Shown here piece after piece: positions 12,355-19,731 of a stretch of 22,468 nucleotides of DNA. Position numbers and translations under genes: made by a program. The DNA comes from a virus. Where the stretch lies: positions 1 to 22,468 of the IMG/VR virus record IMGVR_UViG_3300025070_000256. The stretch is one strand, 5' to 3'. Each line of letters starts with the position of its first letter. The stretch's first letter is position 1. Below the pieces are notes generated by a model. The model was given only the letters and a program-made list of their open reading frames with translations. It made no database searches and was not told the origin of the DNA.

Positions 12355-12380
12355 TTATAATAAACTAATTATAATAAACT
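12355..12380 (+). repeat. Tandem TTATAATAAACT repeats, 14-bp period
   Basis: The 12-mer TTATAATAAACT occurs at 12355-12366 and again at 12369-12380. The second copy runs into the left arm of the large hairpin. Repeats with this close spacing often mark protein-binding sites; no protein can be assigned. Confidence 0.6.
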
Positions 12381-12408
12381 TTACTCCCATAGTAAAGTTT
12401 ATTATGAT
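12368..12408. promoter_or_regulatory. Large perfect inverted repeat (hairpin or operator)
   Basis: The left arm (12371-12385, ATAATAAACTTTACT) and right arm (12391-12405, AGTAAAGTTTATTAT) are perfect reverse complements over 15 bp around the loop CCCAT. A T-G pair and two more pairs extend the stem to 12368 and 12408. No T-run follows on either strand, so it does not look like an ordinary terminator. It could be an operator dyad, a leader RNA hairpin in late transcripts, or an origin hairpin. Confidence 0.7.
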
Positions 12409-12450
12409 AATAGTATTAGAGTAAAGTAAGACTATTATAATAATAGTATT
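12391..12450 (+). repeat. Two imperfect repeat units AGTAAAGT...TAATAGTATT
   Basis: Unit one has AGTAAAGT at 12391-12398 and TAATAGTATT at 12408-12417. Unit two has AGTAAAGT at 12420-12427 and TAATAGTATT at 12441-12450. In unit two, ACTATTAT and ATAATAGT (12431-12438 and 12440-12447) form a near-perfect palindrome around one A. The same TAATAGTAT word occurs four times upstream of the sigma-like gene. Confidence 0.6.
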
Positions 12451-12469
12451 TATTATTATACAATATTCC

Positions 12470-16827: not shown

Positions 16828-16930
16828 TTTAGACCAATTCATAGATGCAGAATACCAATTTATGTTGTATGTTAGTACCCTTTATACTAATAGTATAACT
16901 AATAATAGTATTATAAGTAATAACCTTTAG
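16808..16930 (+). CDS. Possible 40-residue ORF running through the repeat region
   Basis: An ATG at 16808 opens 40 codons ending at TAG 16928-16930 (MLITNSNLDQFIDAEYQFML...). The first half looks protein-like; the second half (Thr/Asn/Ser/Ile-rich) is simply the translation of the TAATAGTAT repeats. It overlaps the previous gene by 20 nt. It could be a small leader peptide or chance. Confidence 0.25.
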   Translation: MLITNSNLDQFIDAEYQFMLYVSTLYTNSITNNSIISNNL

Positions 16931-16974
16931 GGTTATTACTAAGTAATAGTATTAGTAATTATAATAATAGTATA
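16882..16974 (+). repeat. Cluster of four TAATAGTAT repeats upstream of the sigma-like gene
   Basis: TAATAGTAT occurs at 16888, 16903, 16944 and 16965 (start positions), twice followed by TA. TTATACT (16882-16888) and AGTATAA (16892-16898) form a 7-bp dyad. The same word is found twice in the divergent control region at 12408 and 12441, and I saw no copy elsewhere. The layout suggests binding sites for one regulator. Confidence 0.6.
16916..16940 (+). promoter_or_regulatory. Hairpin AGTAATAACC / GGTTATTACT in the sigma-gene leader
   Basis: AGTAATAACC (16916-16925) and GGTTATTACT (16931-16940) are perfect 10-bp complements around the loop TTTAG. No T-run follows, so it is not a standard terminator. 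It lies 40 nt before the sigma-like start and could be an operator dyad or attenuator-like element. Confidence 0.5.
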
Positions 16975-16979
16975 CAGAG

Positions 16980-17708
16980 ATGAAGATAACAGAGAGAGAC
17001 TTACGCAATTGGTTCCCTGCGGACCGAAGGTTCCTGCACTTCTGTGCAAAGTATTACGGATACTCCTTCCACAATGATGAGGTAGTAGAGAGGGCTAACC
17101 ACTTAGCCGTGCTTAATGTGATGAGGTTAGTAAATAGAGATGAAGAGTTTGAGAACGAGGCGCATATGACAGGCATTGTTATGTCTTCATTCCGATACGC
17201 AATACTCAACTCCTATACCAATTCCCTTTCAGCTAACGAGAAGAACTTAGAGGTACGCAATGAGAGTGAGATAACCTATGGTGATGGTGATGATGAGTAC
17301 AGCAAGTACCAAGCCAATGCAATAGCAGATACCAAAGAGATAGACAACCTCATTGATGTAGTAAGAGACTATGCAGAGACTAACCTACCATACCTACAAC
17401 GCAGAGCTTTAATGGAGTGTGTGATTGGTGAGTCCTCTATGAAGGAGCTGGCTACGGATACAGATACAAGTGTACGCAAGGTCCACCTTGCAAAGCAGAA
17501 AGCAATCAGAAGAATTAAGAAATTTATAGGAGTCCTAAATGAGAATGAAGAGAAGTATGGAAAGGAAGAGGTTAATGGAGAGTACGTTAGCCCATCTCGT
17601 AGCAAGTTACAAATCGCAATACAACTTGAACCCGTTAGAAAAGACGAGACGAGAGAGCGTAATTATAGCAAGGCAATGTCTTTTGTCAATACTCCACCAG
17701 AAGTATAA
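16980..17708 (+). CDS. Sigma-70-like RNA polymerase sigma factor
   Basis: A 242-residue protein with the layout of a small sigma factor. Residues about 25-85 read as region 2 (helical, with NVMRLVNRDEEFENEAHMTGIVMSSFRYAILN). A short acidic linker (about 95-125) follows, then a region 4-type helix-turn-helix (about 135-183: LPYLQRRALMECVIGESSMKELATDTDTSVRKVHLAKQKAIRRIKKF). The C-terminal tail (190-242) is extra. It would direct host RNA polymerase to phage promoters, plausibly the late block. The upstream gap contains repeated motifs, suggesting control of this gene. Its 3' end overlaps the next gene in another frame by about 134 nt. The family call is by pattern, without a profile search. Confidence 0.65.
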   Translation: MKITERDLRNWFPADRRFLHFCAKYYGYSFHNDEVVERANHLAVLNVMRLVNRDEEFENEAHMTGIVMSSFRYAILNSYTNSLSANEKNLEVRNESEITYGDGDDEYSKYQANAIADTKEIDNLIDVVRDYAETNLPYLQRRALMECVIGESSMKELATDTDTSVRKVHLAKQKAIRRIKKFIGVLNENEEKYGKEEVNGEYVSPSRSKLQIAIQLEPVRKDETRERNYSKAMSFVNTPPEV

Positions 17709-18000
17709 TCAAAGCCCGAGTCACTTAGGAAGGATGGTTGGTAAGAACCACGCCACCGTGTTGCACTGTAGCAAGGTCGTGAACAACGCTATGTACTATC
17801 GTGATGTTCAGTATGTAGATGAGATAAACAAGTGGGCATTAATCTTTGATGAGGTGATGCCTAATAGCCACGAGACTAAGGATGAGGTAGCTGATACAAT
17901 CAGCGACCTACTACTCAACTCAATGCTTGATAGCAAGAACAAGAAGGATGTACTGAGGATGGTACTGAAAAAAATTAACAATGTTTATGTCAATAATTAA
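17575..18000 (+). CDS. DnaA domain IV-like DNA-binding protein (1)
   Basis: A 141-residue protein. The DNA-binding domain of DnaA is recognisable: RRESVIIARQCLLSILHQKYNQSPSHLGRMVG and the signature GKNHATVLHCSK (56-67), equivalent to the 'DHTTVLHA..K' motif that reads DnaA boxes. The AAA+ ATPase of DnaA is absent, so it is a stand-alone DNA binder, plausibly for replication initiation or transcription control. ATG 17575 is chosen because AGAGG lies just upstream. An earlier in-frame ATG at 17539 is possible; a later one would cut the domain. About 134 nt overlap the sigma-like gene in a different frame. Confidence 0.7.
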   Translation: MESTLAHLVASYKSQYNLNPLEKTRRESVIIARQCLLSILHQKYNQSPSHLGRMVGKNHATVLHCSKVVNNAMYYRDVQYVDEINKWALIFDEVMPNSHETKDEVADTISDLLLNSMLDSKNKKDVLRMVLKKINNVYVNN

Positions 18001-18591: not shown

Positions 18592-19346
18592 TGGATATAT
18601 TAGAAAGGTTTAACGATGATGAGGTGTACTATGCGGACAGGGAATACCTGTCCAATAGTTCCCTCAAGCTAATGAAAGAATCCCCTACCAAGTTCAACCT
18701 ATGGCACAAAGGTAAATGGTCACAGCCTAATACCTCAGCGTTTGATGTAGGTCGTGCGTTGCACGCAAGGTTCTTGGAGGACAAGGTAAACTACATTGGT
18801 TGGGAAGGTCAGCGCAGAGGTAACGACTACAAGGAGTTCCGTGCCGAGAATCCACAGACCATTGCACTAACCAAGAATGACTTCCACCTTGTTGAAGGTA
18901 TGTATGACAAGCTGATGAAGGTTGATGCTGTCAAGGAGATTATGGGTCTTGAGTTCACTCCCGAAGTACCAGGAGTAATGGACTACCATACTGCTCAAGG
19001 CAATGTCGTGAAGGTCAAGGGTAAGGCTGATGCCTTAGCTTGGAATGGTGTAGACAACTACCTTGTGGATTTGAAAACCACTCGTGACCCAATGCACAAG
19101 TTTAAGCGTAACGCTTTCTTCAACTATGCACAACAAGCATACTTGTACAAGACTATCTTCAATGTAGATAAGTTTTACTTCTTAGTTGTACAGAAAGAGT
19201 TCCCTTACGAGGTGGGTATATACGAAGCAGGTGATGCTTTCCTTGCAAGAGGTGAGCAAGAGTTAGAAGAATCAATTAACCTTTACGAAAGATTATTTAT
19301 CAATGGAGAATTTAAACCATACAGCGCAGACATTGATGTCATATAG
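18591..19346 (+). CDS. RecE-like PD-(D/E)XK exonuclease
   Basis: A 251-residue nuclease that probably resects double-strand ends to feed the annealing protein. RecB-type motifs are present: an N-terminal YLSNSSLKLMKESPTKF, GRALH with His58, an acidic residue in KGKADALAW (Asp147), VDLKTT (Asp160, Lys162), and QAYLY (Q182 to Y186, the QxxxY motif). This layout fits the RecE C-terminal/DUF3799 group. Length is normal for the family. It overlaps the ERF gene by one base, and the second DnaA-like gene begins inside its 3' end. Confidence 0.85.
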   Translation: MDILERFNDDEVYYADREYLSNSSLKLMKESPTKFNLWHKGKWSQPNTSAFDVGRALHARFLEDKVNYIGWEGQRRGNDYKEFRAENPQTIALTKNDFHLVEGMYDKLMKVDAVKEIMGLEFTPEVPGVMDYHTAQGNVVKVKGKADALAWNGVDNYLVDLKTTRDPMHKFKRNAFFNYAQQAYLYKTIFNVDKFYFLVVQKEFPYEVGIYEAGDAFLARGEQELEESINLYERLFINGEFKPYSADIDVI

Positions 19347-19731
19347 TAGCCTTGAGAATGTTATCATCTCGGGTACAAGCACCATAAGTGGTGTAGCTAT
19401 ATCAGACATTATGTCTAACAGTAAGAAGAAAGAAGTAGCATTAGCTAAGGGCATTGCCTGTGCTGTGTTCAATGATTATGGTTATGGTGTTCGTGAGATA
19501 GCGAGGCTATTGAGCATTGACCATAAAGGGGTATCGGTATATATCGGCTCACACGATAACCGAATGGCTGACAAAAAGTACCTAATCAAGTACAAGAAAG
19601 TCAAAGCATTTGTTGAAGGCTATGAGCATTCAAATGAAGTAAACGTAAACAGACTCAATGAGATGGCTGGTAAAGTCATCGCAATGGAGGAAAGGTACGA
19701 GCATTTAAAAGAACTATTAACAAGTAACTAA
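19303..19731 (+). CDS. DnaA domain IV-like DNA-binding protein (2)
   Basis: A 142-residue protein with a second DnaA-type DNA-binding domain (about 38-105): SKKKEVALAKGIACAVFNDYGYGVREIARLLSIDHKGVSVYIGSHDN. The 'DH' plus following helix matches the DnaA signature, but the TVLHA part is replaced by GVSVYI. A helical C-terminus follows. The ATG at 19303 overlaps the nuclease gene by 44 nt; an ATG at 19336 would overlap by 11 nt and leaves the domain intact. It belongs to the recombination cassette by position. Compared with the first copy it is diverged, so the two may recognise different sites. Confidence 0.6.
   Translation: MENLNHTAQTLMSYSSLENVIISGTSTISGVAISDIMSNSKKKEVALAKGIACAVFNDYGYGVREIARLLSIDHKGVSVYIGSHDNRMADKKYLIKYKKVKAFVEGYEHSNEVNVNRLNEMAGKVIAMEERYEHLKELLTSN

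Follow-up and report, generated by a model that had tools for sequence, protein, structure and literature searches.

The analyzed stretch of viral DNA (all 22,468 nucleotides of IMG/VR record IMGVR_UViG_3300025070_000256, hereafter the window) appears from its gene content to be a tailed-phage fragment; its minus-strand arm carries matches to a terminase large subunit and a tape measure protein, and its plus-strand arm holds genes for an exonuclease and an Erf-like annealing protein, together with a frame that matches a primase/helicase. Two further genes of the plus-strand arm lie in different phases: a sigma-like gene at 16980–17708 (an ORF of 242 amino acids) and a DnaA-domain-IV-like gene with an open frame at 17539–18000 (an ORF of 153 amino acids; candidate starts at 17539, 17545, 17557, and 17575). 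A second small protein, encoded at 19303–19731, weakly matches DnaA domain IV (E 1.3e-4, under the cut-off); its gene begins 44 nt inside the upstream exonuclease gene, another join longer than the 1 to 11 nt that the first-pass annotation gave for most, and the same arrangement, with 62 nt, is found in the related contig L096.

The pair is preceded by a leader (16828–16979, plus strand) that contains a 25-nt hairpin (16916–16940) and has similar counterparts in relatives. Exact matches to the 9-mer TAATAGTAT lie in this leader at 16888, 16903, 16944, and 16965 on the plus strand; altogether the window holds six exact copies, where 0.53 would be expected; every copy is on the plus strand, in either the leader or 12371–12460, and each of these two regions also has a strong hairpin. 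Among 33 loci (window included), 25 have TAATAGTAT within 200 nt upstream of the sigma-like gene, in either orientation, and nine copies were counted elsewhere in these 33 loci; the 9-mers are candidate operator, promoter, or origin repeats.

Predicted folds of the two proteins

The structure model of the sigma-like protein (pLDDT 73) yields fold matches mostly to sigma factors, and over residues 1–197 only. Sigma2-like helices are predicted at residues 1–83 or so, a part of the model that is covered by whole-chain fold matches, but with large rmsd; the sigma4 domain, at residues 118–193 approximately, emerges from Pfam and from fold matches, the best of which is 3mzy (Z 9.5, rmsd 1.6, 73 residues). 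The Pfam match to Sigma70_r4_2 in the window protein (E 0.0017, 18.4 bits) falls under the 25.7-bit cut-off; at E ≤ 0.1 this domain is detected in 24 of 39 family members, and Sigma70_r2 in one of the 39. As modelled, the protein has the sigma4 helix-turn-helix domain of the sigma-70 family and appears ECF-like. In common with ECF-type sigma factors, such as those in the E. coli sigma E and M. tuberculosis sigma H structures, it has a helical domain that matches sigma4 and another that loosely resembles sigma2; it differs from them in being phage-borne, in an identity of about 14%, and in the C-terminal tail that follows sigma4.

This tail (residues 194–242; 17559–17705, plus strand) is modelled mostly at low confidence, with pLDDT values of 44–63 in blocks from residue 191 onward and a weak helix at residues 209–236. 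Close to its end lies the peptide AMSFV (residues 232–236; 17673–17687, plus strand), encoded on codons that read RQCLLS in the DnaA frame. Because a short conserved peptide follows a variable, low-confidence linker, we infer that the tail is a flexible linker ending in a candidate docking peptide.

The DnaA domain-IV-like fold of the second protein (residues 14–86; 17578–17796, plus strand) was found by profile match and in a structure model with pLDDT 87, whose top fold match is the DnaA domain IV structure 3pvp_A (TMt 0.74, E 0.01). Bac_DnaA_C is matched in the window at E 1e-6 and 29.1 bits, under the 31.5-bit cut-off, and at E ≤ 0.1 in all 38 members scanned. Against E. coli DnaA domain IV (1j1v, E 8.9e-7), the profile match begins inside the overlap with the sigma-like gene. 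Sequence profile and predicted fold match bacterial DnaA domain IV (1j1v, 3pvp) across the domain; unlike bacterial DnaA, the protein is 141–153 amino acids long, lacks AAA+ and N-terminal domains, and has extra C-terminal helices. Pfam scans of the window protein and of family members detected no AAA+ domain; since this ATPase domain III is lacking, the protein is called DnaA-domain-IV-like, and not a DnaA.

Extent of the overlap and start of the DnaA-like gene

Counted from the ATG at 17575 to the end of the sigma-like gene at 17708, the two plus-strand frames overlap by a minimum of 134 nt; both open reading frames are present, as the first-pass annotation had described, and the second position of each sigma codon is the first position of a DnaA codon. 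The shared stretch codes for the C-terminal sigma tail and, one base out of phase, for the first half of DnaA domain IV. Where the first-pass annotation had placed the first DnaA-like helix inside the sigma tail, the model goes further: two helices (residues 14–28 and 39–55 in the 153-residue numbering) are encoded within the overlap, and the helix-turn-helix of the DnaA-like fold is encoded after it.

In-frame ATGs at 17539, 17545, and 17557 would give overlaps of 170, 164, and 152 nt, respectively. Residues 1–8 of the DnaA-like model are of low confidence and order starts at residue 14, so that the domain would be intact from any of the four candidate starts. By its substitution pattern among 11 close sequences, the DnaA frame already looks protein-constrained at 17539–17574 (plus strand); pN/pS in this stretch, which has only nine variable sites, is 0.033 in the DnaA frame versus 2.7 in the sigma frame, and DnaA dNN/dNS is 0.034 (CI 0–0.084). 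Of the nine variable sites, six fall on DnaA third positions; at sigma third positions, variation drops to 1 of 12, compared to 113 of 186 upstream. Since the DnaA frame looks coding from about 17539, the overlap is likely to measure 152–170 nt; the DnaA-like gene probably starts at 17539, 17545, or 17557, adding 18–36 nt, and the 134 nt of the first-pass annotation hold when counted from 17575, but probably fall short of the true extent. A start exactly at 17575, with an overlap of 134 nt, would agree with the purine-rich stretch just upstream and with the ordered structure from residue 14, which adjoins that methionine; it is nonetheless rather unlikely, given that the codons before it vary mostly at DnaA-synonymous positions and that in many relatives the first or only nearby ATG falls further upstream.

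The sequence AGGAG lies 6 nt upstream of 17539, and is given little weight; at the 25 other gene starts examined on both strands of the window, no Shine-Dalgarno match exceeds 4 nt, and a AAAGAGAAATG-like context is common to several window gene starts. To judge from these starts, the host seemingly does without reliance on Shine-Dalgarno pairing. A sigma70-like promoter on the minus strand (17689–17662; 12/12 match, extended -10), antisense within the overlap, was judged incidental because its -35 letters differ in the relatives L010, L013, and L014.

Conservation and selection in both reading frames

The sigma/DnaA-like pair belongs to a family of uncultured phages. Viral contigs were scanned six times, which recovered 138 loci (17, 25, 14, 20, 27, and 35), many of them repeats of one contig, and profiles were examined in 140 sources, namely these loci, L018, and the window; loci with both genes, after merging of identical DnaA-like frames, amount to 40 distinct pairs. 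The two genes overlap in the same phase in all 40, by 140–179 nt when counted from the first ATG that keeps the overlap to 182 nt or less, while sigma identity to the window ranges from 97% down to 25% (39-row alignment). No relative in which the sigma-like gene stops before the DnaA-like start occurs among these pairs, and the earlier proposal that a long true overlap is needed is borne out. All 60 loci obtained with sigma-domain patterns (25 and 35) have the overlapping DnaA-like gene, and none is sigma-only; the DnaA-like gene stands alone in three distinct contigs, two of them cut at the contig edge and the third being L096. L012 and L015 (three loci each) begin inside the DnaA-like gene at the contig edge, are for this reason uninformative on the overlap, and were dropped. 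The structure alignments comprised 39 sigma rows and 38 DnaA-like rows, the latter including L096; the selection counts were based on 11 close sequences and left out L007 and L009 (5′ cut) and L011 (whose DnaA-like frame is that of L010). Searches of 50,697 phage records by blastn and tblastn found no relative of the window pair, of the sigma-like and DnaA-like proteins of L037 and L016, or of the L099 DnaA-like protein; a sigma relative was also not found in one scan of genome contigs. The sequences show the overlap arrangement to be old, and both readings have apparently been kept by selection for a very long time.

A comparison of synonymous and non-synonymous change in close relatives, as the first-pass annotation had suggested, indicates purifying selection on both frames. 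Among the 11 close sequences, sigma dNN/dSN is 0.22 (95% CI 0.04–0.57) in the overlap from 17575 to about 17705, and DnaA dNN/dNS is 0.08 (CI 0.01–0.22) for the DnaA codons of the same stretch, the DnaA frame being the more strongly constrained of the two; the DnaA-frame synonymous rate is 0.177 within the overlap versus 0.468 after it. A simple sigma-frame pN/pS in the overlap is 0.87 and would look neutral; the constraint on the sigma tail is visible only when both frames are counted jointly.

Resampling gave a second view of the sigma frame: the DnaA-like protein was held fixed and synonymous codons were redrawn for 23 representatives under 75% identical. The window sigma frame remained open to its stop in 9.8% of these DnaA-preserving draws, and the frames of the representatives in 0.7–19% of draws each, with a product of 10^-31.2 over all 23 that is not a formal P value. 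Mean pairwise identity in the sigma frame of the 23 representatives is 0.290, against 0.156 under the null (sd 0.005, maximum 0.172, 1000 draws). At the place of the C-terminal peptide, the pattern [AT]-x-[SAD]-[FWY]-[LIV], which was written post hoc, occurs in all 23 representatives versus 0.88 expected, and the motif is kept in 0–5% of DnaA-preserving draws per representative; the strict form [AT][ML]S[FWY][LIV] is found in 34 of the 40 pairs. As a caveat, the resampling P values are too small because relatives share synonymous codons by descent; with descent ignored and the motif pattern written after the sequences had been viewed, these nulls are strong, not exact. With this proviso, both frames of this dual-coding pair are conserved and under purifying selection. 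In the DnaA frame, RQC is followed by CTT in 22 of the 23 representatives, by ATT (Ile) in the remaining one, and by TTG in L096. In the divergent group of L016, L017, L043, L138, and L139, the sigma tail extends approximately 15 residues past the conserved Phe (seven in the window) and includes a shared QYEIP-[YF] stretch; upstream leader repeats are absent in these five.

L096 is the single relative without the overlap, and serves as a naturally occurring control in which one gene of the pair is missing. Within L096 1759–5366, the leader, the DnaA-like gene, and the neighboring genes are kept in order (genes of 200 and 102 amino acids upstream, the exonuclease and the second DnaA-like gene downstream), and there is no sigma gene; the DnaA-like gene follows directly behind a leader with hairpin and AT-rich repeats, of the kind that precedes the sigma-like gene in other members. 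The neighbors are 40–60% identical to their window counterparts, and the DnaA-like protein 28%; a sigma relative was not found in the 13.4-kb L096 record, which may be a fragment. The sigma-phase frame of L096 is interrupted by seven stops in 57 codons, and the place of the motif reads TMLVLY. In the DnaA-like tree, L096 falls among sigma-bearing lineages; since its branch is long and the tree is unrooted, loss of the sigma gene in L096 is the parsimonious reading, not a proven one.

Origin and possible function of the sigma tail

Among dsDNA viruses, overlaps exceeding 50 nt are frequent, with 61% of genomes having one (PMC7017920), and stop-codon loss is listed as an origin of terminal gene overlaps (class a) in PMC2268670. 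For the phage pair, the sequence comparisons show that the shared stretch is dual-coded, and we consider it likely that a sigma tail with a selected docking function arose by stop-codon loss over an older DnaA-like gene. The older frame in the overlap is that of DnaA, because the part homologous to bacterial DnaA domain IV starts there, and what was overprinted is consequently the sigma tail, in agreement with the first-pass annotation, which had suggested overprinting of this tail. Codon usage points the same way, as raw values only: in the overlap, the DnaA frame resembles the rest more closely (r 0.735) than the sigma frame does (r 0.606). In this scenario the sigma gene would once have ended shortly after the sigma4 domain; loss of its stop codon, which most simply explains the origin of the tail, would have let translation continue through the start of the DnaA-like gene, adding a tail of some 45–55 new residues. 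The tail would then have gained a function, as a linker with a short hydrophobic docking peptide that may hold sigma on a partner, for example a protein of replication or of transcription. The DnaA-like protein would be made from its own internal start and bind DNA via domain IV; the two genes, read from one leader, would supply factors for phage transcription and for replication control at the same time.

A tail without function, produced by neutral stop loss and held open only by the nucleotides that the DnaA frame dictates, would account for the near-neutral simple pN/pS of the sigma frame and for the stronger constraint on the DnaA frame; yet preserving the DnaA-like protein rarely keeps the sigma frame open and even more rarely retains its motif, sigma-frame identity is far above the resampling null, and the frame is closed in L096, which has no sigma gene, all of which makes this explanation very improbable. 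The depressed rate at DnaA synonymous sites across the overlap could also come from constraint at the nucleotide level (an RNA structure, start-site context, or a DNA-binding site) and not from a conserved sigma tail. Such an element is improbable as the cause, given that the sigma frame is open in every one of the 40 pairs, that conservation tracks sigma-frame residues across wide divergence, and that this conservation is lost in L096 together with the sigma gene.

That both frames are jointly open for about 160 nt in every pair would also suit a programmed frameshift within the overlap, yielding a sigma–DnaA fusion protein. A shift of +1 would be required, which is the rarer kind of programmed frameshift; moreover, every pair has a separate ATG for the DnaA-like frame, L096 carries this frame by itself, and conservation extends to the sigma C-terminal peptide close to the regular stop, which a fusion protein would not require. 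A fusion is accordingly the remotest of these prospects, and the preferred reading remains that of a selected sigma tail overprinted on an older DnaA-like gene.

The sigma protein gp55 of phage T4 lacks a sigma4 domain; identity as a gp55-type late sigma was rejected for the sigma-like protein, in which sigma4 is present. According to PMC2988020, gp55 binds the sliding clamp through a short conserved hydrophobic C-terminal segment behind a divergent linker, and gp33 occupies the sigma domain 4 site. The resemblance to the gp55 described there is one of analogous layout only, a phage sigma-like protein with a linker and a short conserved hydrophobic C-terminus; in contrast to gp55, the peptide itself differs, and its DNA also codes for another protein. 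The bacterial clamp-binding consensus (QL[SD]LF or Q-phi-x-[LM]-[FL]; PMC12309361, PMC13254535) was considered for the sigma tail and rejected, as position 1 has no Gln and mostly E or K precedes the motif; the window record, possibly only a fragment, yielded no member of the beta-clamp family. By analogy, the sigma tail might dock to the replication machinery as gp55 does to the clamp, while the DnaA-like protein as an initiator might bind the TAATAGTAT repeats of the leader as origin or operator; this combined reading, in which one set of nucleotides serves both the initiator's DNA-binding domain and the sigma tether, is unlikely, and if true would tie phage transcription to replication.

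The arrangement resembles stop-loss overlaps and overprinted viral proteins, as outlined in PMC2268670 and PMC8227390, in that the extended 3′ end of a neighboring gene invades an older frame and that the new tail lies outside the known fold; it differs from the overlaps outlined there by a sigma tail with a conserved C-terminal peptide, kept at about 25–30% sigma identity, and by an older frame that represents half of a DNA-binding domain. Overlapping genes are thus a known kind; unusual here are how deeply the arrangement is conserved, the presence of a conserved peptide, and the DNA-binding domain as the older frame. The pair is undescribed in the literature searched on phage overlaps, DnaA-like proteins, and sigma tails, mostly at the level of titles and abstract starts. 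A long overlap on one strand is readily taken for an annotation error; 40 diverged pairs and the L096 control allow testing, and make this a tractable case for studying codon sharing between two proteins over long periods. On the preferred reading, a regulator can acquire, through loss of a stop codon, a C-terminal peptide that is new, under selection, and encoded across the DNA-binding domain of its neighbor; should a replication protein be the docking partner of the tail, this would represent a route to replication–transcription coupling that is independent of that of T4.
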